Of a stretch of DNA of 64,000 nt, positions 18,001 through 43,576 are shown in pieces. The first letter of the stretch is position 1. The number at the start of each line of letters is the position of its first letter. The position numbers and the translations under genes were made by a program. A model generated the notes under the pieces. That model was given only the letters and a program-made list of their open reading frames with translations, did no database searches and was not told where the DNA came from. The DNA lies in contig CM035313.1 in assembly GCA_002900995.3 (NCBI GenBank), positions 124,001-188,000 on the forward strand, read 5' to 3'. The DNA is from Ganoderma boninense (taxonomy: Eukaryota; Basidiomycota; Agaricomycetes; Polyporales; Polyporaceae).

Positions 18001-18209
18001 GTTGTATGTAGACCATCTATTTAGTCACCCCATTCCGGGGTTGTCAATATATTTCTTGCCGGAAACAAAAGCATGCATGACGTACCGAAATAAGCCAAGG
18101 GGGTCTTGAAGGAGCAGGCCGTGCGCAGAGAGAGAGGGAGGCGGAGAGAAAGAGAGGCGTGACCAAGGGCTGGGCACATAATTCCCGTAGAGTACCCTGT
18201 AGTTACCAT
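15000..18209. other. No intact gene recognised
   Basis: This 3.2-kb stretch has only short, overlapping frames on both strands with no recognisable domain. Weak WD-like patches on the minus strand around 15.7-15.95 kb could be further relics, but the similarity is too poor to call. It ends at the proposed left end of the KDZ element. Confidence 0.5.
18202..18209. repeat. Candidate left target-site duplication of the KDZ element
   Basis: GTTACCAT directly before the left terminal repeat compares with GTTACAAG (37426-37433) directly after the right one; 6 of 8 positions match. An 8-bp duplication is, as I recall, what Zisupton-type elements make. Its decay is in line with the decay of the terminal repeats. 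Confidence 0.5.
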
Positions 18210-18264
18210 ACAGCCGGGTCCTATAATTCCCTGGACATGTCAGGCAGCCGGCCCCGGCCCGGTT
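18210..18264 (+). repeat. Left terminal inverted repeat of the KDZ element
   Basis: It starts ACAGCCGGGTCCTATAATTC. The inverted partner starts ACAGCCCGGCCCTACAATAG. The shared core continues with CCTGGAC and AGCCGG; matches then thin out, though ATAGCTGTGC/ATGGCTGTGC recurs further in. Confidence 0.65.
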
Positions 18265-18599
18265 TCCTCCACATAGCTGTGCCCTCCCCTCGGCCGGGCT
18301 CTCATATACGTTCTACTTCAACCATCATCGCTGCCCCTTTTGGCGTGCTGTAATACCTTTCATAGACTTCATGGAAGCAATGCATCCGCAATGCGATGGT
18401 AGTATGCCCCCTAACGACCTCATATGATAAACGTCATAGCTAGCATCGAAGGCTTGGATCCAAAGGCCGACATCCCTCATACCCAGCCGGGACAGGCACT
18501 TCGAAAGCTTGAGTGACATTCTTAATTAATCTTGTGTTCATGTCGATAACCTCTCATAGGTACGTCTTCCATCGGGGTAAGGAGAGGGGTCAGAGTGCT

Positions 18600-20760
18600 G
18601 GCTGATTTGGGTGGGAGGTGGCCCCGGCCGCAAGGCGACTGCATGTACGGCTCACGTCCGGCCGGTCTTCGCACCTGCGAGAATCCCACCCACCTCATCA
18701 TGCGTCTACCACGGTGGGGCGCTACGGATTCCCGTGAAGGCGACCTGGCCGGGAGGCCAGTGCGGTGAATGCTGACGCCTGGCCGGGATTTGCACCTCAA
18801 AGTCCTCCGCCGGGAGCTCCAGGCGTCGATCGCGGTACGTGATCACGTCAGTGAACAGACATGATTTCAGTAAACGCTCACAGACACTTTACAAACAAGG
18901 GGGGGCAGACGAAAAATTCGGGGGGCGTACCCGGCCGGGTGGCGAGTGCCAGTACTGCTGCCACCCGGCCGGCCGTCGCATTTCGAGGACTCATGCACGG
19001 TGCGCCGACTGTCGGTCCGGCTCATTTGTGATTTGCGCGGATCTATCATATACTAAAGCATGTCTTGCAGCCATATTGAATGCCCCGCGCACGGCACGGA
19101 AAATCGAGGGGGGCGTACCCGGCCGGGAGGCGAGTGCAGGTACTGCTGACGCCCGGCCGGGAGTCGAACTTCGAAGTACTTCCACCAGGCACACGTTGTG
19201 TCGGTGAGGCCTGACGTTGAGTTGCGCGGTTCAGGCATATACTAACTACTACTTTCAGCCATATTGGATGCCCCGCGCGGGACACGAAAAATCGAGGCGG
19301 GCGTACCCGGCCGGGAGGCGAGTGCAGGTACTGCTGACGCCCGGCCGGGAGTCGACCTTCGAAGTACTTCCGCCGCGCGCATGATGTGTCGGTCGGGGTC
19401 AGCCATACTTTGCACGGACTTTGCACATACTAACGAGCACTTTGGAGGCACTTGTGGTCCCCCACGCGGGACACGGAAGGTCAAGGGGGGCGTACCCGGC
19501 CGGGAGGCAAGTGCGAGTACTGCTGACGCCCGGCCGGGGTCGCACCTCAAGCACTCATACCTGGTGCTTCGCCCACGGTTCGTCTCTCGAGGGCGTCAAC
19601 CCTCTCATGCAGGCATCCGCGGGGGTACGTCTCAACATGCATGCATGCATCTAAGATTGAATAATATTTATTAGCTTCCTTGCTTTCGCCGCGCAGCTCA
19701 CGAAGTTTCGGAGGGGGCGAACCCGGCCGGGAGGCGAATCCAGCTACCGCTGACGCCCGGCCGGGGTTCGTCTCTCGAGGGTGTCGAGAAGGCGCACCGG
19801 GCATCGGCCATGGTGCGCATTATATGCCGCCTACTTGTATTGAACTAATCTACGTTTTCAAGGTCCATGCAGCCGGACGCGGCCCTCGCGAAATTTTGGG
19901 AGGGGGCGAACCCGGCCGGGAGGCGAATCCAGCTACCGCTGACGCCCGGCCGGGGTTCGTCTCTCGAGGGTGTCGAGAAGGCGCACCGGGCATCGGCCAT
20001 GGTGCGCATTATATGCCGCCTACTTGTATTGAACTAATCTACGTTTTCAAGGTCCATGCAGCCGGACGCGGCCCTCACGAAGTTTCGGAGGGGGCGAACC
20101 CGGCCGGGAGGCGAATCCAGCTACCGCTGACGCCCGGCCGGGGTTCGTCTCTCGAGGGTGTCGAGAAGGCGCACCGGGCATCGGCCATGGTGCGCATTAT
20201 ATGCCGCCTACTTGTATTGAACTAATCTACGTTTTCAAGGTCCATGCAGCCGACGCGGCCCTCACGAAGTTTCGGAGGGGGCGAACCCGGCCGGGAGGCG
20301 AATCCAGCTACCGCTGACGCCCGGCCGGGGTTCGTCTCTCGAGGGTGTCGAGAAGGCGCACCGGCGTCGGCCATGGTGCGCATTATATGCCGCCTACTTG
20401 TATTGAACTAATCTACGTTTTCAAGGTCCATGCAGCCGGACGCGGCCCTCACGAAGTTTCGGAGGGGGCGAACCCGGCCGGGAGGCGAATCCAGCTACCG
20501 CTGACGCCCGGCCGGGGTTCGTCTCTCGAGGGTGTCGAGAAGGCGCACCGGGCATCGGCCATGGTGCGCATTATATGCTGCCTACTTGTATCGAACTAAT
20601 CTACGTTTTAAAGGTCCATGCAGCCGGACGCGGCCCTCGCGAAATTTTGGGAGGGGGCGAACCCGGCCGGGAGGCGAATCCCACTACTGCTGATGCCCGG
20701 CCGGGGTTCGTCTCTCGAGGCTGTCGAGAAGGCGCACCGGGCATCGGCGGTGAGGGACAT
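18600..20760. repeat. Left satellite array, ~188-bp unit with paired CCCGGCCGGG palindromes
   Basis: The first CCCGGCCGGG of each unit begins at about 18930, 19118, 19306, 19495, 19722, 19911, 20099, 20286, 20473 and 20662, so the period is 187-189 bp with one longer interval. Two degenerate units precede at about 18622 and 18745. Each unit carries a second CCCGGCCGGG about 35 bp on, then a hairpin-capable GCGCACC...GGTGCGC. Units from 19.7 kb on are nearly identical, those to the left are diverged. The array sits just inside the left end of the element. Open frames across it are repeat artefacts. Confidence 0.93.
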
Positions 20761-20962
20761 TGCTTTCACGCACGTACAGCATGGTGAACACAGAGTAAGC
20801 GCCCTCGTTCGCGTCTCTGCACCTCAGCAGGTCTCTGTCTGGAGTCTGGATGCAAGGATCGTCGCATTCAATCTGGCCACTGTCAACATTCTTTTCAACC
20901 GGTTGGATACATTCACATTTACTAATCAGACAAGCTCAGCTTTAGCTCCGTTATTCTTCCCT

Positions 20963-21669
20963 CTATTCCCTGCAACTGACACTCCTTTTGGAACAATATT
21001 TTGGCCAATGACTTGTACGCCTTCCCGGAAGTCGCTTCGAGGTCTGCGCGGTCAGATTCGAACAGCGGTATTGGCGGACCCTGAACGCCATGTCAACACT
21101 GGAACGATGTTCATGTCTGCTACATACCACATCCAGCGTCGGCGCCGTCCACCACCCTGGCATCTCAGGACTCTCAGCTGGCGGTGCCGCCTTCCACAAC
21201 CACCATTTCGGAAACCCCCAGTTATCTCCCCCGCTGATCGGTCCTCTCAGCAGTGATTGCGCCGAGGCCAGGTATTCGTCTTTATCCAGCCGAGACAGAT
21301 CAAAGGCGAGTCTTCTATGCCTCCAACTGACTGCGCCGAAGAGATGCACTAAGGGGGGCAATTCGTTTGTGGCGACTGCAGAATGCTCGGCCGTGACCCC
21401 GATCGAAGATGCTCCCTCCATACCAATCGCCGAAATCGCCATCCACTGGGACATCGTACCCATTTTAAGCTCAACATACTAGAACCTCTGCGATATGATT
21501 GGCTCACCAACTCCCGTGCGATACCATGGTTCCATCGGCGCAACGTCAGAACGTCGGCGTTGTTCGGAAAGGCTTCAATCGCCTCAGCGATGCGGGATAT
21601 GGTGATCAATACCTCCAGTCGAGATGACCACACAGTGTCTGGTCCCTGCGAGTTGGTGGATGCGTCCAT
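20963..21669 (-). CDS. Small two-exon gene of unknown function in the KDZ element
   Basis: Exons 21508..21669 and 20963..21445 are joined by a 62-bp intron (GTGAGC...CCCAG), both in phase 0, giving 214 residues. The ATG at 21669 opens MDASTNSQGPDTVW. The middle has a Trp/Gly-rich block (GPISGGDNWGFPKWWLWK). It is followed by a basic C-terminus that may be poorly modelled. It lies 113 bp downstream of the transposase stop on the same strand. I do not recognise a family. Its frame and intron support a real gene; the absence of any domain keeps confidence moderate. Confidence 0.5.
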
Positions 21670-21782
21670 GGCGAATAGAAAGAAGTGTGATTGGTCACGG
21701 CAATTTTCACAGCGTTCAATATTGTATTACATAACCATCGGCGTCCACTTCCCGAAGCACCGGCACCATTCTACTTCGCCGT

Positions 21783-24700
21783 CTAAGGCTTATATGTCGC
21801 GCGAGCGGCGCTGAACGCCGCCTTTGCATGATCCCTCAGACTCGTCCAGATCCATCGCTGCGATCGAGCGAAAGCAACGTGTCCGGGAGTTACACCGACG
21901 GCTGACCACCCATCCCACCGAGCAGCGTGCGTCTCAAAATGCCGCAACACGCAGTCCATCTCGAACGGCACCAGCTTCACCTCTTCGTCCCATCTCCGCT
22001 TCCGTGCGTATGCACGCAGCCAAAGCATGCGGCGATCTGTGAATGCTGTCGGTCAGGTGCTTCAGAGGGATGGACTAGGGATCCCCACTCACATTCCTTC
22101 ATCCATTGGCTGTCAGACCCTATCGCGGTGTCGGCAAGGTTCCAAAACCAGGCGGCATGCTTGTTCCTAAGCCCTGGCGTGAAGGACTCCAGAACGGCGG
22201 TTGTGGCCAAGAGATCTTCCCGCTTGATATCCTTGTATTTCTCCAAGAACTGCTGTCTAAGTGCAAGGTCGGCTTCGTCGGCGGGGTCGAAGAGTTTCTG
22301 CATCGCGGTCCGGGCGTGCATATAGATTCGAACGTGCTTGCGGACCCCTTCATCGGCGATATGCGTCTCGTCGAAACTTCGAAGCTTCGAGCGGTAGGTT
22401 GGAGCGTGACGGACCTTCGTCCTGTAGAGCAGCGATTTGTAGCCGATGCCAGTTCGGATCGCCTGAAGGGCATCGTTCATTTGGCCCTCGCGTAAGAGCC
22501 GCTCAGTGAGGGCGAGACCTAGACAACCCCGGGAGCGAAGGAAATCCATGCCTACGGTGGAAGGCAGCGCGAGTCTCAGTCTCTCGGGCTGTGACAGATC
22601 CTGACCTTCATCTTCTGCGCCGTCAACGTCGCCGGCATTGGGATTAGCATCCCCAGCATAGCCATCCCACTCCGATCCCAGTGTACCCTCATCAACGTGG
22701 TCGGCGGCGATAACAGCGGCACCTTGCTGCCCGAAATGATCGCTGCTTTCCTCATTGAAAGCAAGAATGTCTTTGCGGAGCTTTTGACGCTGTTTCACGA
22801 AGCTCAATCGCGATTGCGTGGCTCCCATGACCTTCAGTCGGCGGGCTGAATACGCAACAGCAAGCCTGGAAACGCAGTCAGCACCCATACCCGCGTGTCA
22901 TTGTATGGCAAAAAAAGCTCGTCGGGGACGCACTTAGTCTCCTCCAGTTTCAGACCGGTGGCAATCCAATCAGCGACACCGCCTGCCGATGTGCTTTCGG
23001 TGAGCTCTTGCTCTGCCAACATAAGCTGAATCTCCCTTCTTGACGGCACTAAAGGGTGTTACGGTTAGCGTTACGGCGAACCAACGTCGTTCAAATGAAT
23101 TACGCGGTTGGGCAGACACGTCATAGATATCCATGGCGGTAGGGTCGGCGTCCCTCAAGACATCGGCCCCATCGGCAGCTGCCTGCCACTCTTCCCGGAG
23201 CTGCGGATCGGTCACTCTGCAGAGGTCGTCGAATGCCTCCAGGGCAGGGGTGTGTTCGCGGCATGCCCGTTTCCACTTCGTGATGAGTAAAGTCGCTAGC
23301 AATCTTCTTGGTCAGCTCATCGTCGGGGTGAGGAAGCCACTGGTGCGCACATATTTTGGTCAACTTCTTCCAGTTTGAATCGTTCATGTGATCGTCGATT
23401 ACTTCACGCCGATGCGCCGAGGACATGCCTCTGGTGGAGTCGGCGATGGCATTAGTTTGATTCCACAGTGTCTCTATAATTTCTCCGTCCTGCATTCCCG
23501 CTCCCGATATGAAGTTGCTGGAAAAACGGGCAAAACATTGAGCGATGTGGCCGTGCACGTGGAACTGACCGATCCCTCTGCAAATCTTGACGCCGACGGG
23601 CATCGTCAAATGAGGACTCTTCTCGAACCGTGCGCGAAGATTGGTGAAGTATTGACACATAATGTCGTAGAGAACGAGGATGCAGGAGAGGCCGTTAAGC
23701 CATGCAAGGATCCAGTGCAGCACGTAATCCATATTCCGCTGCCTATAGCCAGCCCCGTGTAAGCCTTATCTCCCGAAAACATCATACGAAACACGCGAAA
23801 CAATTACCTCTCTCCCAGCTGGAAATCGACACATGCATGAGGGGCGAAGAATCCGTGCCGGGAACATGCAGCCGCGCCGATGCCCGTCGCCTCGAACTTC
23901 GCTCGTTCCATAGTCGCAGTCAGCACGGCTCGATGCTCGTGGCATGTCGATTTCTGGTACGTGTGAGCGACGACAGTTAGCGCTTGGATCGAACTTACTC
24001 TCTTGTGACTCACCTCTTTGAATTCGGCAGCAGTGCGTAGGTGTTCTTTGTACGGTGCGTCGGTCACCATGAATGCGTGCCCGTCGGCAAGAGCGACGTC
24101 ATCCTCTGGATTTCTCATGTGCTTGTGCTGCGCACTGAAGTTCCCGTCCAGTACCACCGATCTCATGTACTTCCAACTTCGCATCCCGGCGTTAGACGTT
24201 CGTCGGCGCAAGTATCGGTAACCACTTACGTTTCAGGGTCCTCCTTCCAGTTATCTGGAATGTTGTCGCCAGGTTGGGGGCAGGCCGGACAGCGGACGGC
24301 AAGATCTCCTGGTCCGACTGACTCCTGCCGGTGAGCGAATCCCGCCGACAGCCGCATTGCCTGGTTTCGCCACTGACGCGAAACCCTCAACAGTTCTTTA
24401 TATCGGTCCTAAACGCCCGTTCAGTATGCACCACATGTATGGACAGTTCGTATTAGCCTCACAGGAACCATGTGGGGAAATGCAGCGTTCGTCGTGCGCC
24501 GAAGCTTGTTGTAGTAGTTGCGAGCAGGCGTTTTGCATTCCTTGTTTGAGAGCAAAAAGTCGTCCAAGACGCGCATGGTGAATACAGTTTTGGGCCTGGT
24601 TTGAGAGGCGGGGTAATAACCTAGATCGAGAAGCTGGAGGTCTTCACGAGCAGCGTTCGGACATATACAGAATGTGAACGGGAGCTCGTGGATGCCTGAC

Positions 24701-25835
24701 TCAGCAGTCAGGCTTTCATGTCATCGGTGGCTGCGTCCCCTTCGGTACTCACCTTCCAGATCAACAACGACGACCATTCTGTCGTTGGCGAACAGGTTCC
24801 CTCGCATCGATGGTGGTGGCTGCTGGGGACCCTCACCGATCCAAGGCAACTCGTCGACTTTGGGAATATCTGCGACAATGCCGGCGCCGACGTACAGGTC
24901 GGCGTCCTCATCTTCGAAGTCGGATTCGATATCGCTTTGAAGGAAGGCGTCATCGCGGCCTTCATCGTCATCATAACGCAGGGGCACCTGCCCAGCATGA
25001 AAGCCATCGGCGTCGGCGTCGGCACGGGCGTCAGCCGCCTCACGCGCATCGGCGAGCACATCGGCGACCTCACGCGCGTCGGCGAGCTCATCGGGGACCT
25101 CGAGGGCATCGGCGGAATCGCCGGCGTGGAATGGCCGCCGCGAGGCATCCGTCCCCCAAACATTATGGGCATCCGTTTGTCGGTAGGACGGCAACATCGG
25201 GCAAGGATCGCCGCCATGACCGCAATGTATCTGGACGCCGACCTGACGAAGCCATGCGGGTTGGAAGAACTCACCCTGCCAGAACTCTACGCGGTGCAGA
25301 GGAAGCTTGGCATGGATGCTGTGACAGCATGCGTAGCAGAGCGTCGGTCTTCCTTGGCAAGTAAGACATCGCCATGAAGCTGAATGGCCGCAGGCTCCCA
25401 CCCCTCCGACTGGATACGCCTCCCGTTCAAGGCGGCGGGAGAGGTACTCGTCGCGGACCGCCACATATTCGCGCTGGTAATCGTTCTGAGTCTGGTGATC
25501 CCGTAGACGTCAATGTAGGCGTTCGGACGCATACGCGACGACTGGACACAAACCTTCGCTTTACGCCGCTTCAGTAAATATGGCTCCCAGCTATTCTCGG
25601 CCTGCTCGAACGCAGTAACTTCGTCCGTCGCTGCGTAAACCAGGGTGTCCGACAAGCCAACATCGTTTGGAGCGGCCGACGCTGTCGAGGCGCCCGCCCT
25701 TGCTTGTTCCACCCGCGGTTCGAAGACTACCGGAGCCTTGGTCGGTACGATTCGAGACCCCCGTTTGGTGTTTCGTACTACCCCTGAATGCTCGATGATC
25801 TCCTTTCTCGGTGGCCTGTCTCGGCGTGAGCTCAT
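21783..25835 (-). CDS. KDZ transposase with CxC2 zinc cluster
   Basis: The N-terminal exon is 25554..25835 (ATG at 25835, MSSRRDRPPRKEIIEHSG), followed by a 62-bp intron and an exon from 25491 to about 24753. Several smaller exons follow down to the stop at 21783; I estimate about ten exons and roughly 1,000 residues. The CxC2 cluster is clear (CGHSASWRCLTCQG, LCYACCHSIHAKLPLH, CGHGGDPCP), followed by an acidic linker rich in ADAREVADVLADA-type repeats. A further CPACPQPGDNIPDNW motif comes next, then ATGIGAAACSRHGFF. The KDZ core has VLYDIMCQYF, GQFHVHGHIAQCFARF, SGAGMQDGEIIETLWN and STRGMSSAHRREVIDDHMND. The C-terminal part has WLRAYARKRRWDEEV. These are hallmark blocks of the KDZ superfamily. 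No stop interrupts the inferred exons, so it may be functional. Exon joints after the second are approximate. Confidence 0.92.
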
Positions 25836-25941
25836 CGACGCTTGTTTGCTGGGGTGGGTGGGGGAGGGGGGGGCGTGTGGAAGGGGTTGCAACGGCGTCG
25901 GTGCGAAGGCGATCGCACCGACACCGGCGGTCGTATTGCAC

Positions 25942-27005
25942 CTATCTACCAATCACATGCGTTTGTAAATTGGACATACCCACCTCCTCCTTCTTGGCCC
26001 AACGAAACACGTCTTCGTCCATGTAAAATGCCAGACACACGCGGTCCGTCGGCACTTTCGGCACTCCGTGCACCACAATCCTCCCGGATAGGAGCACCAC
26101 TGAACCGGCATCGTAGGATAGGGACGTCCCGAGGTTCCGAAGCTCCATCACCGCTGTCTCCCCATAACTTCCCAATGTGAGGAGCAGGTCCAGCCAGCCC
26201 GCTCCCGCGCTCATATCGCGATGCCTCACCGACTCACGATTCACAATGATCTGGACCGCCGAATAGCAAGTAGGCCACTGTGCGATAACTGCACGGCTGG
26301 CTGCATGTTCGGCGTAGAGCGTTTCGATAAGGCCGATGGCTGACCGATACAGCGCGGGATGCACGACGGCTAGGATCCCGTCAAGGAGGCCGCCGACGGT
26401 TTGGAATTCTTTCATCCAGATAGCGCAGCCATGGCTGGCAGTCGCGAGGCTAGGCGTCGGCCCTTTCGGCGTGCGCTGTCAGCATGCGAAGGGCGGTATC
26501 AGCAAACACCACCGCAATGCCTCTGATCGTCAATCGTTTACCGTCTGTCCAATCGGAAAACCGGCCGGGTAAAGTAAGGTGGCACCCTGGCCCCAATGCC
26601 CCCCATCAGTGAAGAAAGCAGGCGCAGTCCGCCATCCTTTTGTGTAGGAATTGGGGCTGCGCCCCTTGGACGGTGTCTTCGTCTTAAGGTCCCCACGGAT
26701 GTGCTCCGTCATTTGCAATATGGCACTCTGTCCATCGATCAGTTGCCTATATATGCATGCGGACAATAGTGCCCCACCTGACGGTGCGGTGGTATTATTC
26801 CTGGAAGGCTCCATACGAGTGCATCACCGCCGCTATCGGTGATCACGGCAGGTCTGTCGATGATGGGGAGGTGTTCGACACGGCCAATGATGTCTCGGGC
26901 TGGAATCAGAGGCGGATACAGGTGGAGGAGTCGGTCTTCACGCTGAGCACGGTATGGCGACACCTTCGGCGCGTCTTCGATGTAGTCATGAGCATTCCAC
27001 CTCAT
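25942..27005 (-). CDS. TET/JBP-type 2-oxoglutarate Fe(II) dioxygenase
   Basis: Exons 26778..27005, 26542..26727 and 25942..26475 are joined by introns of 50 and 66 bp, giving 315 residues with phases kept. The N-terminal block PPLIPARDIIGRVEHLPIIDRPAVI is followed by VWSLPGIIPPHRQ. The dioxygenase fold shows the iron-binding H-x-D as VRHRDMSAG, then LLLTLGSY, and the distal His and 2-oxoglutarate-binding Arg in VVHGVPKVPTDRVCLAFYM. TET/JBP enzymes oxidise 5-methylcytosine (or thymine) in DNA; the fungal group is expanded next to KDZ transposons. The gene sits 106 bp upstream of the transposase on the same strand. All expected metal and cofactor residues are visible, so an active enzyme is plausible. 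The second intron starts GTAAAC. The substrate is not predictable from sequence alone. Confidence 0.88.
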
Positions 27006-27553
27006 TTCATCTGGGCTCAGGGTAAGAAAAACCCGCCTAAACTACACTAGGACAAATTACACACATTTGTTTCCGACCGCCTGACCGAGGACCGTCGCAA
27101 TTTGGTGACAATCTGCTGCCATCATGGCATCGAGGTGACTCGGCGGAGTAGGCAAAGTCCTGCCCGTGGCGTTGTCATTGGCTGAGGTGTGGATAAAATA
27201 TTGAAACAAGGCGACAACGTATTCTGCAGTGCGTGCTCGGAGCTCGAAATGGAGCGGAAGAGATTTCATGCTCGAGGCCATGGGACAAGATGACCATGTA
27301 TGAGATGGAGAGTGCAAATTTGTCTGGGCGTTCCACCCTGCTTGCGTGCTGTGGTCGATCAAAACGCTCCGGACAGCTTCCGGCACACTTAGCGCCCGGG
27401 CCGGTCCGAACGGGTGGTGGTTACCTATAACCGGGTGCCAGAGATTCACCTCGTCCTCCCCACCTCGACCCTCTGTCTGCGTCCCGTCTCCGTACTCTCA
27501 TCGCCTCAGTGCCACCGCTCCTCGACGTTTCTCATCATCGCCCCCCCTCCACC
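27006..27553. promoter_or_regulatory. Divergent intergenic region between dioxygenase and homeodomain-like gene
   Basis: About 0.55 kb separates start codons pointing away from each other. A pyrimidine-rich stretch (about 27450-27550) leads into the plus-strand ATG in a CACC-ATG context. No other motif is convincing. Short frames here have no recognisable content. Confidence 0.4.
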
Positions 27554-30500
27554 ATGCCCCGTGTCAGCGACCTCACCGAAGCGGAGGACCAGTACCTCAC
27601 CTCTCGCCATGCCGCCTTCCGCCAAACCCCCGCCACCGAGAAGGACGCGTTCCGCGAGGCATGCGCCAAGCACATCATTACAGGTCGCAGCCTCGCGCTT
27701 GACGACCCATATATCCTTGATCTCTTTATCGGCGTGAGTCCTTTCTTCATCTACTCACAGCGTCAGCACTCAGATGGAGTTGCGCACCACAGAAGGTGCG
27801 CAACTGGTTCCAGAACAACGCGCCGGTCAAAAAGACTCGGCTTCCTCTCCGCATCAATAACGACTTTCATCCGGAGCGTGTCTGGGGGATGCTCCACCAG
27901 GCCAACATCCGGGACGCGCTTTTGAAGTCTCGCCCTCCGAAGGTGGCCGACGATGCCCCTCACGTTGTCGTCTGGAATGCGAAACGCAAGCAGATGTGGA
28001 AGGCGCTTGACGAGGAGGAGCGAGGCGTCTATGAGAGAATGGCTGTCCTATGGAGCGAAGAGGGTCCCGACGACGACCTGAAGCCTCAGTGCGTATAACG
28101 ACGTGTCCTTGAACTGCCAAAAACACACTAACCCTGCGTCGTAGAATGGCTGAGCGCCGGGCAGTCGCTTGGATGAAGGCCGTCTGTCTACTCTTCTGGC
28201 AGCAGTGCCGCATGCCGGTTTTTATATACGGTTGCTTCGAAGACAGCAAGGCACAACTCCAGGGCGCAACGTGAATTACCTAGCCACTCTTATCTTGTGT
28301 AGCTCTGATGTATGCGGCGAATATAGTTTTGATACTTCGTTACTATTCGAGGACACGAAAGAAGCCAAGGGGAAACCCACGTTCCGCCAAAGCAAAGAGT
28401 GGGCCACTGATTTCCGGGCCTACTTTTACAATTTCTTCACGCCGTACATCCGCCCCGATCTTGCCGCCCCCGAGGCGATGGAGTATCTCCGGACCACAAG
28501 CAAGAAGGTGGTGCAGCCTTTCGAATTTGAGGAGACGGAAGAAGGGTGGCCACTCCTGCCGAAGGGCGACGATATGTCGCACACGCGTCGGCAAGAGGTC
28601 CTTCGAAAGTGGTTCAAAGAACTTTACGGTGCGTGTGATCCGTATTGTCCACTAAGGCCCTACCCTAAGGAGCGGATGTCAGGTCTCGCCTGTGGGCGGG
28701 AGGTTCTATCCGCCCCTTGGACCTCGATCGTAAAGGTACCCGACAAATTCTTCGCACCAGGCATGCTCATGGACGGTTTCAAAATCGACGACCCGTCTCA
28801 CATCCGCCGCAAACACCTTATCGACTTCTACGCCCACGTAAACGCAATCCAATTCCCAACGCCCGACGCCTCTTCCCAGCTTCCTCCCCGCTTCCAGTTC
28901 TCGCATTTTGAGGAGGGCCCAGAGGACGACCGAACGTACCCGGAAGCCATCAACACCGGCTATGTGGAACCCTGGCGGCCGCGTCGCGCGAAGAAGACGG
29001 TGCGCCCACCTGGGTTCGATGCACCCCCGGGGGCCACCGACGACGAGGAGGGCGATAACGCAGGAGACACAGAGCCCGCCGCAGCCTCTACCGTCAAGAA
29101 CCAAGGTCGCGGCCGATTCAACCCAGGGCCTAAGTTCTACAAAGATATGAGGAAGATTCAGCGGGAGAACGAGCGGGCGAAGGCTCGCAAGGAGAAGGAG
29201 ATGGCGAAAGCGGCGAAGAAAGCGGCCAAGAAAGCGGCCAAGAAAACCAGGAAGAAGGGTGGTAAGGGAAAGGGTAAGGCTTCGGCTGCATCGGATGAAG
29301 ACCTTTGGGAGACGGACGACGCGGGCACACCCGAGGAGGAGGAGATAGACTTCGATGCGATGGATAACGATGTTCCCGAAGACGACACCGAACCCAGCGA
29401 CGACGAGGAAAACCCCGTACCGCCGCGCAGATCTCCAGACGACCTCACCGACGACTCCGGAGATGAAGTCGAGGTGGAGCTGGAACGCTATGAAGAGGTG
29501 CTCTCATCCTCCGCCGTTCGCAAGACCGCTCTTGGCCGCGGCGCCGGGCCCAGTCGATCGGCGGATCAGTCTGCCTCCGTGGTGAAGAACCGTACCCCAT
29601 CTGCTTTGCGCTCCAAACGATCGCGCGTCGCGGAGACGTCTGTCGCCGCCGATGTCCACCCAGTGGCCGAAGGTTCCGCTAACGCCAATGTCGTCCGTGT
29701 GGCCGACCACGTCGGGAGCACCGCCGAGGCCGTCGAAGTCGCTTGGTCTCCCCCATCCGGCTCCGACCTCGCACCTTTTGAGGTGCCTGCCGACGGACGG
29801 TCGCGGCTCTCGTATCTGCGGAGCTTAGATGCCGACCCAGCATACCTAAATATGCTGGAACGCGTACAACACCTCGTATGCATCCTTACATCATTTGACC
29901 TCGATCGCCTACTAATCCGATGACCAAACTCCAGCTCGCAGAAACGTCGGCCATCCGCGTCCAGCCTCCTCTATTCTGGGCCAGCTGGGGCTACAGGTCG
30001 CCGTTTCTCCCACAGGAGGCTCATTCTGGCCAAAAGGCACGGAAGGCGCTAGATGGCATCCTGAAGTTCCTAAAGAAGGGACCGCCGAAGACGTACGGGG
30101 CCATGGAGGCACAGCGGTATTGCCTCGTCATGGGGCTCGCGCTGCACAACATCATGGCCTTACAGTTCGTCGAGCCAGGGGAGGAGTGGCCAGCCCGTCT
30201 GCCATCCTATATGGCAGGAAGCGCTCTCTCCTTTGACTTGCTCAAGCCCTTGCTCGACGCATGCGAGGCGGCATTTTGTCCCGCCGATGCGGTGTCGGTG
30301 AACCAGCGTGATCCTCCTGCGGGTCCATCTCATGCGGCATCGGCGGCTTCGGCGCCACTGGAATCTATCCCAGTAGCCATGCCGAAGGCTGCCCGCCCGG
30401 GACAACCGCCTCAGGAGGTCCCCGCAGCGCCGCCGAAGGCCAACTCTGCCCCAGCACGCAAGACTCGAGGTCGAAAGGCCAACCCTGCCGTCGACCGTAA

Positions 30501-30705
30501 CGCGGCCGCCAAAGTGGCGGAGGCTTCCGAAAGGCCGCTCAAGCCAGCCCGTACATCACCGAGGCGGAAGCGCGGAAGAGCGGTCGCCGATCCTGCAGAG
30601 CCCGCCGATGTTGTCGCAGAGGCTGACAGGGCCGACGCAGAGGCTGATGGCGCCGATGCTGGATCCAAGCGGGCGACGAGGCGGAGCACAAGGCTGCGAT
30701 CCTGA
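27554..30705 (+). CDS. Large KDZ-cargo protein with homeodomain-like helix and charged linker
   Basis: Exons 27554..27733, 27793..28088, 28145..28270, 28325..29875 and 29935..30705 have consistent phases. A further in-frame intron is possible near 28630-28690. The protein is about 970 residues. The second exon opens KVRNWFQNNAPVKK, which resembles the recognition helix of a homeodomain (the WFQN core), and is followed by WNAKRKQMWKALDEEERGVY, a helical segment similar to HMG-type boxes. A lysine-rich stretch (29200-29280, KKAAKKAAKKTRKKGGK) suggests nuclear entry. Long acidic segments follow, and the last exon ends in basic AT-hook-like patches (KTRGRKANPAVD, SPRRKRGRAV). DNA binding in the nucleus is likely. 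I know of no named family with this whole architecture. Confidence 0.78.
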
Positions 30706-30865
30706 TAGAGCCGTGTCGCATGCGTTCATGCATGAGCCTTGAGCCTGTATTATAGATTGGACGATTAACTACTATGTGCATGCATGTTTCCACCGGAACG
30801 CACTGGCGCAAGGAACACCGTTGTCGGCCAATCCTTGTAAATTCTATACAGGTGAGCGCCTTGTT

Positions 30866-33800
30866 CTACACGGTACGAGCACTAGCGTCCGCAACCACCC
30901 GCCGCAAAACGTTGTCACTGAGACCCAGCCGCTCCAAACTATCCAGAACCTTCCGGTCGAACGCATGCCGATTGGCGGCCTCAAGCTCCAGAGCGTCGAC
31001 CCTACCGCGGAGCGACTCTATCGCCGATGTGAGCCCGGAGACCGTGCTCGCCGGCGAGGCTGTACCCTGACCCGCGCCCACACCGTAGTCCCTCTCCATA
31101 CGCAAGAGCCGACCCTCGAGATCGTTGATCTTGGAGGAGAGTCCCGCTGAAACCCGCGTGCACGCCGCATCAATGAACTGGTCGATGGCGGCCGTCGTGC
31201 GCCACATATCGGCCAGCGCTTGGCGAAGAGCCTCGACGATTTCCTGCAGCATGGACGGCGTGAGGGTACCCTGCTGAGCGATGGCATTGACGAACCGCTC
31301 CAGCGGTGCCGAGATGGCGATTCGCATGGCATGGATTTCGTTGGATAGCTGAGCATGGAGGTTGGAGAGCAGAGGTTCCATTGCGTGCGCTGCCTCGTTT
31401 GCTGCCACTTCCGCCATCAACTCGATTGCGTCTGTGCGCCCTTCAAGCCGATAGAGCCGTCGCCGAACGGGGCGAACGTCTTCCTGTAGTACTGAATACT
31501 TGCGCATTGCATCCTCGTAGGCGTATTTGAGCTTTGCTACCTCGCGCAGGATCTCCTCCAAGGTGTCGCCCGTCATAGGACTCGCCATAAGATCCTTAAG
31601 ACAACGCGCTAGAGACGAGATCCATTTGTTGCAGTGGGAGAGCTGCCGCGAGAGCCTGGCGACATCGTGTCCGAGACTCTGCGATTCCTCAAACCAGGTG
31701 TCAATGAGCTCGGCTTGCTGACGACTATCTGGGTCGCGCATGGCGTGCTCGCTCCTTGCCTTCACGGACTGCGACTGCCGGATGAGAGCGTCGGCCGATT
31801 CCTGCGTGGATTCGATAATATAGGATACACCGACTAGGTTCGACTTGAGTAGCTCGGTTTCGGGCAGGGCGATCCTGCCGTCTTCGGACAGGGGCATGAG
31901 GGAGTCGAGCGTTGCGGGAGAAGGATCGTCGTTGTGATCGTCGATGGGTAGCTCCTCCTCGCTCACCGCTGCAACCTGTAGCCGGGTAAGCACGTCGTCG
32001 AGACGCGGAATACTGCGCCATGTACCTGGAAACGTATGAGAGGACATTCCGATTGATGTAAAACATAGCTCACCCCTCACAGGCGGAACGATTACGTCTC
32101 GAGCTTCGGACTGCGGTTCCGTATCGCTCACCGGAGACTCTGTGCCCGCCCTCTGATCCGTCGTTGCGTGGACGAACTCACTGCCCCTGACTTTCACGAT
32201 GCGCTCCAGGGCGTCCGGATCGAGCGGTATAGGGGCCGACGCATTGGGCTGTGCCTGACCGTCGACCTCCATAGCATCCACGTCGATCGGGGCAGCAGAG
32301 GAGCCGGCCTCTTGTTTACGAGGGCGCATGGCTGGCGACGTGTCGGCGATGTCTGCGGGAGGGGAATACTCTTCCTGTTTCACCGAAGGTGAAGGGTCCG
32401 AAGCACTCGCGATGTCGCTACGTGGCCGGCTGAGGGTGCGGAGTGTCGCCTTTTCCGTCGCAGCCTGAACGGTCGGCGTAGACGTGTGAGGGCGGCGCGG
32501 GAGAGACACAGGGGGCGCGGACGACAGTGTCTTCTTCATTCGAGCTGAAGCCGCGCGTGTGGCAGGACCGGCGGTGAAGGACGAAGGTGCGCCGTCCTCC
32601 AAGGGGGGAGAGCGGGTGCGGTCCTTGGCTGTGGATGCCCTGGTCGACGGCCGACCGGGATCTCGCTCCGACGCTGGGCGCGTTCCAGCAACTGCGGAAG
32701 GGGACAACATTGTGTCATCCCCCAAGCCTGGCGAGTGGGCCCGGTCCTTGCCTTTGGAGGCCCTAGTTGATGGCCGACCTGGATCCTGAAATGCTGATTC
32801 CGAAGGGGAGCGTGCGGGTTCTTGAGTTCCCTCGGGCCAATCTGGGCGTTGCTTCCCAAACTGGGCCTTAAACCACATCGGAGGCTCAGATATTGGAGGG
32901 GGATTGGTAGCAGAGAAGGAATCCGGTGTGAACGCCGGATCGCCGAAGAGCACGGGGAAGGACAAAATCTTCCAGTACGCCCACGCCAAGAAGGCCGACA
33001 GTGGTCGAGTAAGTCCACTGAAAGTTAGTGTGCACTTTTGCTTCCGGCGGGCGCAATAGGCGCATACGGAGGTCGACAGCGGATGTATGCTGCATTCTAC
33101 GCCGGCGACCTGGCATCGAAGACAGGGAGCCGGCTGTTACATGCATGGGGCTGTAAGAAATCTGGAGGGAGAGGAAGGAGAGCAAATAAAACCCACATGA
33201 CGCATCCATATGTTGGAGATTTCCTCGGATGGAATGTTGGAGAGGGCGGCTAAGATGTCGGACGTAGAACCGCGAGGGGTGGGGGCTGTTCCATGGACAT
33301 GATTACAACGAGGCAAATGGGCGCAGATCAGGAGAAACTCACCGCGTTCGGCTACCGTTTCGTTCTCCTCGCCGCCGATGCTCGCCTGTGTGTGTGGCAG
33401 CGCGTTGCTCGACGCAGCGGCATACCGATCCTGATCCGCGAAGGCGTGCGCCGATGGCACTTCTAAGGACGTCGGTGAACCCTCACGCTGGCTTGTTAGG
33501 TTCGGAGGAGGGGAGGAAATGGATGGTAGGTCTTCATAAGGTGAGAACCCGTTAGCAGTAGCTCATAACGCATCAGACTGCGACGTGCCTGGGGTCCCGA
33601 AAGCTGCCCACCACCGATCTGGAAGCTCCTGCTCCGGAAGTAGTCCCATGGGTCCGAGGTCATCTGCTTGGTACTTGAGGCGGCGCATTCCCTTTGGCAG
33701 AACATCCTGTAGTGCAGGATGACCGGCCACCATGGGCTGAATGGCGTCAAGGTTGAGAGTCGACTTGCGGGGAACTTCGCGGAGGCGGCAGTTCGCAGCC

Positions 33801-34027
33801 CATACACAGCCGATCGCCAGAGTGGGGAGCGTTTTGAAAGAAGCAGTATTGAGAGCATTGAGGAGACACACCACGTCACGCATAAAACGATCGTCCCAGG
33901 GGGCTCGTAACGGACTGTCGACGGGAGGGCGACTGGGGAATGCGTAGTGGATCTTGCTCGCAAGTTGACGAACCGTATATTGCTGAGCAGCGGTCGGTGG
34001 TGGTTTGGCTGCGCTGATAGCTGACAT
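30866..34027 (-). CDS. Large coiled-coil KDZ-cargo protein, unknown function
   Basis: The last long open stretch (about 33010 down to the stop at 30866) encodes a Pro/Ser-rich disordered part (DPGRPSTRASKGKDRAHSP, nearly repeated downstream as DPGRPSTRASTAKDRTRSP). A long helical region with coiled-coil character follows (LIDTWFEESQSLGHDVARL through LRGRVDALELEAANRHAFD). A 51-bp in-frame intron is likely near 32050-32080. Upstream exons contain VPSAHAFADQDRYAAASSN (about 33.35-33.45 kb). An ATG at 34027 starts MSAISAAKPPPTAAQQYTV and reaches about 33570, and may be a first exon joined through a weak donor (GTCGCA) or a separate 154-residue gene. It is convergent with the preceding plus-strand gene. 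No enzyme motif is seen; a structural or DNA-tethering role is only a guess. Confidence 0.6.
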
Positions 34028-34406
34028 ATTGAGGTATATGGTGGACACACCGAGAGGGGGGCGGTAGAAGAGACGCAAACAGAGCTGGGGAAAGTGGGCG
34101 CAAATCGATTAAGTTCGAAGTCACGTGAGGTTAACAGATGTGACCCCGAGCACACACTCTCTTGCATCCTACGCCCATCGGCGGCACTGCGCTAAAAGGA
34201 AGGTAAGTTATGTTGACCAATGCGAGGCCAGATAGATAATCGTAACGTCTGGCCATGCAGATCACAACACCATCTTGCTGCAATGTCGCGCCCCGGCCGT
34301 GAGTGGGGCCCCCTTACCTGACAGCCGACATTGATTTTGTTAGGAGGCAAGAAGAGAGGGACAAGAGGAAAAAAGCCCGGGAGGGCACCACGTAGGAGAC
34401 AAACGG

Positions 34407-35582
34407 ATGGAGGTCTCGAGTTCGAGTGATGAGCCAGAAAATGAGACGGAACTGATCGTAGATTGTTTACAGAAACCTCCCCAGACCACAAGCGCGTACG
34501 CCTGCAATCCCCACGGAAACAGGGGCCGGAGGAAGAGGGAGATGTGTACCATCCAGTGATGCCCTCGGACTCGAACGACTTTGGCCTTTCAATCTCCAGC
34601 GCAGGTGAAACATTCCGAACATGCCACACCAGTATTTTTTATTGACTGATTTTCAAGGAAATCGCTACCAAGTTCTGCAGGATGCGTACGAGCTTCCCGA
34701 TATGGTGCTCGGAGAAGCATCCGGGTCAGACAGTGAAGCAGGCTGCGAAGCTCTAGACGGCCGTTCCGAGGATGGTGTTGGGAGCGCGCGAAAAGGTAAA
34801 ATTTGCGGAACATCTTGAGTACGTTTTGTGATTTAACATCATGCTTCCCAGCGGAATGGAGCTTGGACCTACCTGACGAACCCCTTGGAGAAGGGTCTGA
34901 CTCATCGAGCACTACCTCAGACGGTAGTCATTGCCGCTTGGTGTCCCGCCCCCTCGGCCAACCCCTTTCCTTGTCGCCATCGGTGGCAATCGGCGGTGGA
35001 AGCACGAGGACCGGCGGAGGCACACAACACGTCGGCGACCCTCGCGAAGGCCATCGGGGTCAAATATCCTTACCGAATGAAGTACCTGACGTTATAGTCG
35101 AGCCGGCTTCATCCCCTGTGGGGACAAGCAACTCCCCTGTGGCGGAGCCTGCGCTGGATCGCTTCGCGTATGGTTTTCCTCGTTCCGACTGCACGGACGA
35201 GCCCGCCTCCCCCCCGCCGTCATCGGGTATTCCTAGTTCAAGGAATACGCCACTGTCTGCCAGCGCTGCAACGTTGCCTCCGCTCTCTCCCTTCCTTGAA
35301 GTGCTGGGGCATGGACTCCTCACGCCAGACGATGGACCCGCCAGAATTGGCGTCGAAAACGAGTTAGAACGGCTATACACTGAGAAGGAAGCTGTCGTGG
35401 CTGAGATGGCCAGTGTTTCGTCCGCAGAGGCTGTGGCGCGGAGTATGCAGCAGATGCGATTGGTCTCGCTGCCCCAATATTGGAACGCGTATCAGCTGGG
35501 ATTGTCTTTACGGGCGCACCAAGCGCGAGGCATTTGGGATAGGGCCAGTGGGAGGAGCGAAGGTTCCCAGGTAGAGGGATAA
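34407..35582 (+). CDS. Unrecognised multi-exon gene at the right side of the KDZ element
   Basis: Three open segments look like exons of one gene: about 34470-34603 (SPRKQGPEEEGDVYHPVMP), about 34655-34795 (DAYELPDMVLGEASGSDSE) and about 34852-35582 (WSLDLPDEPLGEGSDSSS to the TAA at 35580-35582). The repeated LPD-(M/E)-x-LGE-x-SxSD theme in two exons suggests internal duplication. The last exon has a helical segment (ENELERLYTEKEAVVAEMA) and ends YQLGLSLRAHQARGIWDRA. The ATG at 34407 (MEVSSSSDEPENE) is a plausible start but its joint to the next exon is unresolved. Function unknown. Confidence 0.5.
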
Positions 35583-35829
35583 CGCTGACTTGTGTACTGA
35601 TTGCAATGTTATACATTGATGCTGCTAAATGGATTGTCAGTCGAAATTTCGCCGGTGTCGCGGAGTTGATGACTGGGAAAGATTCCTAACAGGAGGTTCC
35701 AGCCGAGCGTCATCTTTCGCTGCTTTCGCCTTCCGGCTGGGATGTCCCTCTCGCGAACAGCGACGAGTCGTGTATTGCATGTAAGAGCGCATAGAAGTTA
35801 TATCAGGAATCATAGAAAGGCATAAGGTC
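35583..35829. other. Short gap before the right satellite array
   Basis: Nothing recognisable; short frames only. Confidence 0.4.
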
Positions 35830-36930
35830 CATACGGACCTTGGACGATAGCTGGCGTCGAGGGCACACGTCCTCCAAGTAGGAGTCACGGCCGGGTGCAG
35901 GTTCTACCTGGCTTTGCCTCCCGGCCGGGTTCTCGCCCTCCCAAATTTTTGCGGGCCGCACGGCGATCTGAAGAAATATGCGAAACACATGTAATCCATT
36001 CAAGGCTCCATCCAAGGTCATGCGCACCATGGGCGACACATGGTGCGCCGGGAAGACGTGCTCGAGGGACGAGTCCCGGCCGGGCGTCAGCTGTAGGTGG
36101 CCTTGCCTCCCGGCCGGGATTGCCCCCCGAAGCAAAATGTGTCAACGGTGCGTCGTCGCAAATGGACATATGGTGGGTTAGCAAACCTACAGTAAACTGT
36201 TCCATGCGGATGCGCGCCGCGGCCGACGCAAAACGCGACCTGTGGGAGTCGTGCAAGGGGCACACCCGGCCGGGCGCCAGCTGTAGGTGGCCTTGCCTCC
36301 CGGCCGGGATTGCCCCCCGAAGCAAAATGTGTCAACAGTGCGTCGTCGCAAATGGACCTATGATGGGTTAGCAAACCTACAGTAAACTGTTCCATGCGGA
36401 TGCGCGCCGCGGCCGACGCAAAACGCGACCTGTGGAAGTCGTGCAAGGGGCACACCCGGCCGGGCGTCAGCTGTAGGTGGCCTTGCCTCCCGGCCGGGAT
36501 TGCCCCCCGAAGCAAAGTCTGTGTGCGCGCGTCGTCGTAGATGCACCTGTTATTCGTTAGCAGACTCACAGTAAACTGTTCCATGCGGATGCGCGCCGCG
36601 GCCGACGCAAAACGCGACCTGTGGAAGTCGTGCAAGGGGCACACCCGGCCGGGCGTCAGCTGTAGGTGACCTTGCTTCCCGGCCGGGATTGGCCCCCTCC
36701 CCCCAACCTAAGTCTGTCCGCTGCGTGCGACGTCCCAAACATACCTATGATGGGTTAGTGGCCTAACAGTATATCGTGCCGTGGAAGTGCGCACCGCAGC
36801 CAACAAAACGTGCGATCTGTGGACGACATTCCATGGGGAGACCCGGCCGAGTGTCAGCTGTAGGTGGCCCTACCTCCAGGCCGGGATTGCCCCCCGAACC
36901 AAAGTCCGTCCGTCCGATTGACACCGTACC
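35830..36930. repeat. Right satellite array, same ~190-bp unit in inverted orientation
   Basis: Unit anchors (the CCCGGCCGGG-type palindrome before the GTCAGCTGTAGG block) fall at about 35886 (degenerate), 36075, 36265, 36455, 36644 and 36842, a period of 189-198 bp. Read on the minus strand each unit has CCCGGCCGGGAGGC, about 20 bp of spacer, CTGACGCCCGGCCGGG and, in the first unit, TCCCTCGAG...GGCGCACC...GGTGCGC. That is the order of features in the left array. The two arrays are therefore the same satellite, inverted. Confidence 0.9.
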
Positions 36931-37370
36931 CTCTCGATGCCCACTGCTAGAAGCATATGTTGCATATTATGCTCCTTGATAGGGGTGCGATTCCTCGCTG
37001 AGCAGCAGCCTTTAGGTGCAAAGGCTGGCTGAGCAGCGAGCATCAGTGGCTCGGCCTCTGAGCTGGCCCCGCTCCCCACAGACGACGGTGCTTACCTGAC
37101 GGCTAGACAAGACTTATGCGCTTGCCACCGTGTATACGATCATATTTACTCGCGCTATCGACGTACCTAGTGAGTGATCACGCAAGGGTTACCGCTGCGG
37201 ACATTGACGCTGTGTCACCCACGACGAAAAGATGCGGAGGAAGTGTGATAGCCGGGTCTGTGGGGCCACTCCGGCCGAGTGGTAAGGGCGCTATGGGCCG
37301 TGATCCGGCTGGACGGCATGCACAGCCATAGCCCCGATAGGGCCCGCTGATAACTGCATTACGTTATAAT
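36931..37370. other. KDZ right subterminal region, non-coding
   Basis: No gene. It contains GC-rich inverted segments (GGCCACTCCGGCCGAGTGG near 37264) and leads into the terminal repeat. Confidence 0.5.
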
Positions 37371-37425
37371 TTCCCGGCCCGCCCCGGCTATCAAGCAAGT
37401 CCAGGCTATTGTAGGGCCGGGCTGT
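37371..37425 (-). repeat. Right terminal inverted repeat of the KDZ element
   Basis: On the minus strand it starts ACAGCCCGGCCCTACAATAG, matching the left end at 20 of the first 25 bases and 38 of 55 overall. GTTACAAG follows at 37426-37433, the candidate target duplication. Confidence 0.65.
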
Positions 37426-37510
37426 GTTACAAGTCCGGGTATACTAATGGCATAGGCTCGGCTGGGCCGACGCGGGCTGCTGCAGCCTGTTTAACCCGAT
37501 TTCTCTATAT

Positions 37511-41827: not shown

Positions 41828-43576
41828 AGTCGGGAAGGGGCGATCTGCAGGAGACGACACGATGACAGAGACGGCGATGGCGACGGCACTCTTGAGATGA
41901 AAAGCAGAGAGCCCGAGTCGAGAAAGCAAGAGGACGGCTCTCGTCTTCGTCTTCAGCAAGCCCACAGCACTTGGCGCAAAGCCTCCGCCACGCGGAACAA
42001 ACAAGCAACAACAAGGTTTCGTTCCGATTTTCCACGACCTGTTGGGCGGCTCTCCGACGTCCGTCCTCCCTTCTTGAACTTCAGCTTGCAATTGCCAATG
42101 AACGACGCTCTCCTTGTCCAGGTGTCGCCGTAAGTCCCAAGCTTAGATTCATGCACGCCTGCGCTCAGCCAGCTCCCACAGAATCACGCACTCCAACCTC
42201 TGACAAGGCACGCTGGAGAACTCCCACTCGGACGACTAGAAACGCTTACATGGTTCACGCTGGGCACGTTTGAAGTTGCTGTTGCTACTTTGAAAAAAAG
42301 AAAGTACGTCCCGCTGATTGCTGTCGACTCTTAGATGCTATATATTTTCACTGCAGAGTCCATGCTCGAGTACGCTTTCCGTGCCCAAGAACATCGCGGA
42401 CGGACTTCGTGGTGCTCGTTCTTCCTCCTGGCCTTCTTGAGCTCTCGTGCTGCATCCTGGGAGCTTTGACACCCGCGGCGCTCAACACATGTACCGTTAT
42501 GCACGTACACGCCCCCGCTCACCTGGCCAGTTAACACCACGGCCAGTTCACACTCGAGCCTCTGACTTGAGAACCCCGACTCAGACCTGGCTGGACTCCC
42601 GTGGAGCCGTCTGCGTCTGGCTACGATATCGTCAAGTACTTGTCGGCTCTACACGGAAGATCTCGACACTGACGACTCCGTCCTCGCGTCCACTTTGCGT
42701 TTCAAAAAACGTTACGGACGCACTTCCTGATACAAGTTCTTTACTCCTGACCGTCTCTCGTTCTCTCGCTCAATCTCTGGACCTCCGCCATCGTCAGATG
42801 CCTCCTCCGCCGGGACGACCCCATATCCTATGTTCACGACGTCCTCGAATGCAGTCAGTCGGTACGTTCCGCGAAGAGTTCTGGAAGTACACGCCGCGAT
42901 GCTCGTCGCGAAGCACAAGTATGTTTCTCACCGCATCATTACCTCACGACGTTCCTTCGTTTCCTCTCATCCCTCATATCTAGAAATATTCACGTCCCCG
43001 CACTCGGAGCCCGTCCGTTTACGCGACCGGACAGAGACTTTCTGCTCATCAGTTTGTTTACCTCCGAATCGTTGCACGACACGCTCTGCCTGACTGTTCC
43101 ATTGTCATTGCTGCGAGAAGATGGTCATGCTCCATTTGCGATTGATCTTTTGGAATTGCCTGGTGGCATACGTAGTCGATGTACCGTAGAGGATTTCATA
43201 TACCATCACATTCCTTTTCTTGCGACCTCGGTGTCTATGCTTCCACGGAATGTTTGCATCTTGAGAAGCGACCTCCTGACGACTCATTTCCTTTGCCGCT
43301 GTCCGAGCGCGCGCCATCGCAGTGGATGATGCCACCAACGACAGCGTCAGAATCCCGGCATCGCCCAGCATCAGTGTCTCATCGCCTCGGACATCGAAAA
43401 CGTGTAGATCATGCCGCCATCTCCACGGTTTCCAAGTACACCAGGATCCAGCCCGTGCCGTTCCCTCAACTCAACCTCGCTCTCATCCCGATCTCGTTCT
43501 CATCCCGACTTCGCTCTCATCTCGACCTCGCTCTCATTTCATTCTGACCTCGCTCCCCCCCTCACCTCCACCCCCC
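41828..43576. other. No gene recognised; upstream region of gene B
   Basis: No convincing frame. The last 110 bp before the gene B start is pyrimidine-rich and contains a short minisatellite (see next entry). Confidence 0.45.
43470..43555 (+). repeat. Short CTCATC-type minisatellite in the gene B promoter
   Basis: Four to five imperfect 17-18-bp copies of a unit like CTCGCTCTCATCCCGAC lie just before the ATG at 43577, merging with a C-rich tract. Pyrimidine-rich leaders are common at fungal promoters. Confidence 0.6.

Follow-up and report, generated by a model that had tools for sequence, protein, structure and literature searches.

The 64,000-nucleotide stretch analysed here, called the window, is C10:124001-188000 of the 55.6-Mb genome of Ganoderma boninense, whose other contigs are likewise designated C1, C3, etc. 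It contains a complete KDZ transposon of 19,285 bp (window 18175-37459) with six predicted genes: gA, a KDZ transposase, a TET/JBP dioxygenase, g4, g5 and g6. Our reading, to which we give a probability of about 0.7, is that this block is a complete element, probably of the Kyakuja type and likely self-moving, and that recombination or conversion in arrays of paired CCGGCCGG boxes likely turned its core round and likely swapped its arms with those of two other copies. The observations that carry it are the defined ends, the target-site duplications, the recurring gene order, the lattice of boxes, a core in reversed orientation and arms that match two different partners. That a single KDZ transposon of about 19 kb carries TET/JBP and four further genes had already been proposed in a first-pass annotation of the window; the protein domains, the conserved genes, the full-length copies and the target duplications all agree with it.

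The left end of the element first matched contig C12 (93% over 591 bases) and its right end contig C7 (94% over 521 bases). Both sites proved to be full-length relatives: further full-length copies, for which the first-pass annotation had advised searching the same genome, do exist. When the three copies are aligned, their homology begins sharply at CACATAATTCCC (window 18175) and ceases sharply after GGCATAGGCTC (window 37459). The left outer arm (18175-18905) opens with the L-type terminus CACATAATTCCCGTAG and the right outer arm (36911-37459) closes with the R-type terminus ...GGCATAGGCTC; both termini are common to C12 and C7. Immediately outside stands GGCTGGG, at 18168-18174 and again at 37460-37466 (7/7 match), and the C12 and C7 copies are flanked on both sides by GGGTACC and GCACAAA, respectively. 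The duplications of more distant elements are also 7/7 (TTCCATG for C8, AACTGTC for C4, TAGAATT for C3, GCTCGAT for C10:250k and AAGTGTC for C1:5292k), save for the C7:3721k element (6/7). Altogether, both ends could be defined in nine elements of the genome, 17.1 to 25.2 kb long by their end coordinates, with a duplication of 7/7 in eight and 6/7 in one; the chance of a 7-bp match at one fixed place is 4^-7 (~6e-5). All nine start with CACAT (5'-CA), and the right end is CTC-3' in the window and in 8/9 elements in all, the remaining one having CTG. Two other lengths of the duplication were considered. A 6-bp duplication, the first reading from the three copies, was replaced by 7 bp, the C8 element showing that the G common to them lies outside the element; an 8-bp duplication, the criterion for Dileera or Zisupton, was ruled out by the eighth base, which differs in the window and in C12.

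These limits correct some details of the first-pass annotation, in which the ends were placed at 18210 and 37425 and copies ending elsewhere were to count against the proposal. The copies do end elsewhere, by 34-35 bp: the true ends are 35 and 34 bp further out (18175 and 37459). The target duplication suggested there (6 of 8 bases, GTTACCAT/GTTACAAG) is element sequence: each of the three copies has GTTACCAT in its left end and either GTTACAAG or ATTACAAG in its right end. The ACAGCC inverted repeat is real and not terminal: the outermost ~35 bp show little inverted match, and the repeat, which is imperfect and subterminal, starts ~35 bp inside each end.

Gene models were derived from codon conservation among the three copies combined with a simple splicing model. 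The splicing script gave 23 models on two strands, six of which were kept according to third-position signal, domains and matches in C8; the others were fragments, or overlapped these six on the opposite strand. On the minus strand are gA (20922-21669, 212 predicted amino acids, 3 exons), the transposase (21783-25835, 1117 predicted amino acids, 12 exons), TET/JBP (25942-27281, 389 predicted amino acids, 4 exons) and g5 (30866-34027). On the plus strand are g4 (27554-30705, 845 predicted amino acids), which is head to head with TET/JBP, and g6 (34283-35582, 328 predicted amino acids). All six are matched in the C12, C7 and C8 copies. Among the three close copies, the ratio of non-synonymous to synonymous substitution (dN/dS) was 0.06-0.08 for the transposase and 0.10-0.21 for the other five genes (0.10-0.15 for TET/JBP and 0.13-0.17 for gA), values that are biased low since the score by which models were chosen favours synonymous change; the third-position pattern was already visible before model building.

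The transposase contains PF18758 (E 1.8e-48; 165.5 bits for a cut-off of 26.6), PF18803 (CxC2; E 2.2e-22) and PF18802 (CxC1; E 6.3e-7). The TET/JBP protein matches PF12851 (E 4.7e-15), with the iron-binding HxD and the distal His in place. Alignment with CcTet (8jkk/7vpn; E 3e-24) superposes the HRD motif, the equivalent of Asp337 and the distal His, so that the enzyme has the HxD and the Asp at CcTet position 337 that define the AG type of TET/JBP; it has an Ala at a site given as Gly or Ser in the excerpts of Kojima (PMC12730594). The N-terminus of g4 is weakly homeodomain-like, then HMG-like (profile matches to fushi tarazu, E 0.017, engrailed, 0.041, and HMGB1, 0.4). A Pfam search with g4 gave a low-complexity match only; single members of eight reached 0.015 (HMG box) and 0.026 (homeodomain), and an unrelated BRCT model was no worse (0.025). 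The homeodomain-like gene of the first-pass annotation is therefore plausible and not established, such weak matches being no better than those to unrelated Pfam families. Pfam had no match for gA, g6 or the first 363 amino acids of g5, in which zinc-cluster-like cysteines and a long helical part can be recognized by eye; the g5 model, which contains exons of 2 and 9 bases, may join two genes. In a protein look-up, gA matched two unnamed proteins and g4 a single one, from Ganoderma leucocontextum (66% identity), with no function indicated for any of them.

The same genes recur throughout the genome. A search with TET/JBP yielded 75 rows, which reduce to 28 loci. Beside them we found the transposase at 26 (same strand, downstream), g4 at 27 (head to head, upstream), g5 at 23 and gA at 17, all four being present together at 16 of the 28; these counts come from best-scoring candidates, and gene absences are therefore weak. 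The C8 element has the six genes in unchanged order, at 25-63% amino-acid identity. From the recurring order gA-transposase-TET/JBP, g4, g5, the cargo is the standard set of the family. A separate feature of some copies is a near-perfect palindrome of 2.6-2.7 kb (arms 96-99.5% alike, no open frame above 172 amino acids), present in each of the C12, C7:3539k and C8 elements, where it interrupts g4, the last TET/JBP exon and g4, respectively. The window copy has no such palindrome.

The orientation of the core sets the window element apart. From 20922 to 35564 it is antiparallel to C12 and C7, while both its ends are parallel to them. All of the eight other delimited elements (8/8) carry the L end next to g5/g6 and the R end next to gA; only in the window element does the L end adjoin gA. 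The common order was also seen at five loci with one end defined (C1:4383k, C6:440k, C1:6219k, C10:1014k and C7:1076k). For this, R-type ends were sought with a pattern present at 15 places against 3 for the control, and the ends of both types, L and R, were set against the positions of the genes. The window orientation is probably the derived state, since C8, the most diverged of the four cores read, has the common order too. A second inverted element was suspected at C7:1075265 and then rejected: its far end was not detected within 4.5 kb, and an R-type end at C7:1076156, beside gA, gives that locus the common orientation. The CACAT L-type end at C7:1075265 is thus a stray one; it lies 891 bp beyond C7:1076156, where a different KDZ element has its R-type end, and is possibly the remnant of an older insertion.

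The two arms of the window element resemble different copies. On the left, the outer arm has 92.2% identity with that of C12 (673/730) and 57.7% with that of C7; on the right, the closer partner is C7 (95.1%, 519/546), and C12 reaches 66.2%. Between them, the core is 57% identical to C12 and 46% to C7 in its non-coding parts, and 76% and 69% in its coding parts. Could this be an ordinary TET+ Kyakuja transposon, with arms that are alike through strong terminal selection instead of exchange, and with an inversion that is an unrelated accident? The outermost 150 bp are indeed 84-99% alike across the three copies, and there is one inversion among nine elements. However, the outer arms of C12 and C7 are only 56% (left) and 66% (right) alike, so arms as such are not conserved and selection on them alone is insufficient; in addition, the left and right partners of the window differ. 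We regard this explanation as highly improbable.

Another way to obtain arms from different lineages within an intact duplication is hybrid-end transposition, in which a complex would have taken a C12-like left end and a C7-like right end, the mosaic resulting from one jump. Parts of both parental cores would then be expected, yet, with the identities given above, the non-coding core is close to neither C12 nor C7. Nor does such a jump by itself explain the reversal of the core, and the high similarity to each partner does not run on from the arm but stops within the arrays, at ~19567 (left) and ~36062 (right). Hybrid-end transposition thus appears unlikely. Taken straightforwardly, the identities speak for arms that were recently exchanged or converted and for a single inversion, all bounded within the arrays or close to them.

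These arrays, inverted to each other, frame the gene block, as the first-pass annotation had recognized for its inverted satellites; their units are of ~189 bp. On the left, an outer array (18906-19567; ~188-bp units with paired CCGGCCGG boxes), which is C12-like up to the point where similarity to C12 stops, is followed by an inner array (19690-20748) of 5.6 copies of a ~189-bp unit, 97% alike. The step from outer to inner array is 227 bp, against the usual 187-189. On the right, inner units (35870-36128) and a C7-like outer array of ~190-bp units (36129-36910) are both inverted relative to the left side. The likeness between left and right arrays is 0.83 in C12 and 0.86 in C7, which indicates that sequence does pass from one side of an element to the other. 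It averages 0.55 in the window element, the left array grouping with C12 and the right one with C7. An assembly artefact, i.e. a core joined backwards, or to the wrong arms, across the repeat arrays, would suit a single odd copy with its limits in arrays. However, arrays 0.55 alike and arms 92-95% like their partners are not confusable for reads of useful length, and one 7/7 duplication flanking both arms implies one insertion; we consider such an artefact distinctly improbable.

Within the arrays, the members of a CCGGCCGG pair are 33-36 bp apart, mostly 34. In the three close copies, which have six arrays between them, one pair follows the next at 187-193 bp, apart from single steps of 200 and 227 bp. 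There are no boxes in the cores of C12 and C7, and one each in those of the window and C8. Genome-wide, the pair occurs at 77 places versus 3 for a reversed control. Fifty of these 77 were listed: the C7 copy accounts for 29 and the window element for 5. The other 16 are outside the three close copies; 15 of them sit 5-18 kb from a TET/JBP locus, and the last one is ~1.5 kb from where contig C4 ends. At nine ends of elements other than these three, the first exact box starts 78-85 bp in from the terminus; in the window element it starts 483 bp inside. Being kept at both ends with nearly none in the core, the lattice looks like a place where a protein of the element would dock. The observed/expected ratio of CpG dinucleotides is not clearly higher in the arrays (0.99-1.17) than in the cores (1.00-1.08), so that array CpG content is no evidence for or against TET action there.

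Two other arrangements of boxes and arrays may be mentioned. The right array of C7:3539k (C7:3558951-3563610) has ~24 units over 4.7 kb versus ~6 on the left side, and its odd and even units differ, with a 381-bp higher-order period. At C4:4596310, an L-type end with CCGGCCGG boxes faces the end of its contig, 1.6 kb away; the element was probably truncated there, either in the assembly or because the chromosome itself ends.

Several observations speak against inversion and arm exchange in the arrays. The inversion is found in just one of the nine delimited elements, so that flipping is rare, or there was one single event, and the apparent second case at C7:1075265 has been lost. C8 is nearly devoid of an array: its arms have five boxes, with one pair spaced by 35 bp and two wider intervals (157 and 155 bp). 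In their present state, the two arrays of the window element differ too much for recombination to be easy. At the level of units, array breakpoints are only suggestive, the inner right units matching the inner left array (70% over 230 bp) with a score equal to that for the outer right array (88% over 78 bp). The downward bias of the dN/dS values must be counted here as well.

The following scheme may be proposed. The element would be moved by its own predicted transposase. The paired boxes might be bound by the transposase or by the DNA-binding-like g4 protein, as Galileo transposase binds arm repeats, and TET/JBP might oxidise 5-methylcytosine of the element and counter its silencing, as in the published proposal for the family. 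Like arrays, from the two sides or from other copies, could pair during post-excision repair or ectopic recombination, which would flip the core and swap arms. As the duplication is still 7/7, the mosaic did not come from a simple crossover with another locus: either it arrived as a finished unit or it arose in place by conversion inside the element. A broader generalization, which is tentative and which we rather doubt, is that Kyakuja elements are modular machines. Their CCGGCCGG arrays, on a ~189-bp lattice (~18 helical turns), would dock the transposase and act as recombination platforms for core flips and arm trading between co-resident lineages, and their own TET/JBP would keep the CpG-rich boxes open.

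The KDZ group reportedly goes back to Iyer et al. in 2014; KDZ elements move and leave duplications. The window element is not a new class, because complete TET+ Kyakuja elements with 7-bp duplications, Polyporales included, were published in December 2025 (Kojima 2025, PMC12730594). As the excerpts of that paper describe them, the TET+ Kyakuja elements of Agaricomycetes share with ours a KDZ transposase, a CcTet-like TET/JBP, a 7-bp duplication and a 5'-CA start, and perhaps also the lack of long terminal inverted repeats; there, the countering of methylation by TET/JBP is held to be likely, not experimentally validated. A TG-3' end is given for two Laccaria families, in contrast to CTC-3' in 8/9 elements here, and we treat the TG-3' end, which the window element lacks, as a variable detail and not as a defining one. 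The CCGGCCGG arrays, the inverted core and the mixed arms are unmentioned in these excerpts, where 'satellite' and 'subterminal' have no match. KDZ1 of Cryptococcus neoformans, for which movement was seen, has a KDZ transposase with a CxC cysteine cluster; it differs by its size (~11 kb), its 241-bp terminal inverted repeats and its 8-bp duplications (excerpts of PMC12810828).

In architecture, the window element resembles the Galileo/foldback-like elements of Drosophila without belonging to them. According to the excerpts of PMC3573991 and PMC4079207, these have tandem repeats inside inverted arms, as do the window, C12 and C7 copies, and extra transposase sites in the arm repeats have been shown or proposed; their transposase, however, is of the P (Galileo) or Mutator type, not KDZ. 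Galileo also has chimeric copies with arms of different subfamilies, an exchange proposed to found new subfamilies (PMC3573991). In the excerpts of the same paper, 12 mixed-arm copies have non-matching 7-bp flanks, as inter-locus crossovers would be expected to leave, whereas the window copy has matching flanks; this favours conversion within the element or a later move of the finished mosaic.

In the KDZ literature, neither the array lattice, nor the inverted core, nor the mosaic arms were found described among the matches listed. Apparently new, then, are the paired-CCGGCCGG arrays in both arms, the inverted core and the arms matching two copies. The first-pass annotation had taken the cargo set to be undescribed: this holds only in part, as the set recurs across the family and complete TET+ Kyakuja elements are in print. 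Of the arrays, the inversion and the mixed arms we met no description among the matches listed. In the CACTA/En-Spm elements of plants, which are under methylation control, a protein of the element binds short motifs in subterminal arrays; they belong to another transposase superfamily, have 3-bp duplications and are not known to carry a TET/JBP gene. With nine end-to-end TET/JBP KDZ elements in one genome, and with recurring genes and a DNA motif, the question of why fungal transposons keep TET/JBP becomes testable, as do the action of the enzyme on the CCGGCCGG boxes and the binding of these boxes by the transposase. The window copy indicates that a KDZ element can be mosaic yet keep an intact duplication, a route to new end specificities so far described for Galileo.

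Elsewhere in the window, the 2-kb step 44001-46000 has a G+C content of 46%, versus 53-61% in the other steps from 12 kb on, and a 17-bp tandem repeat is located near it, at 43474-43537.

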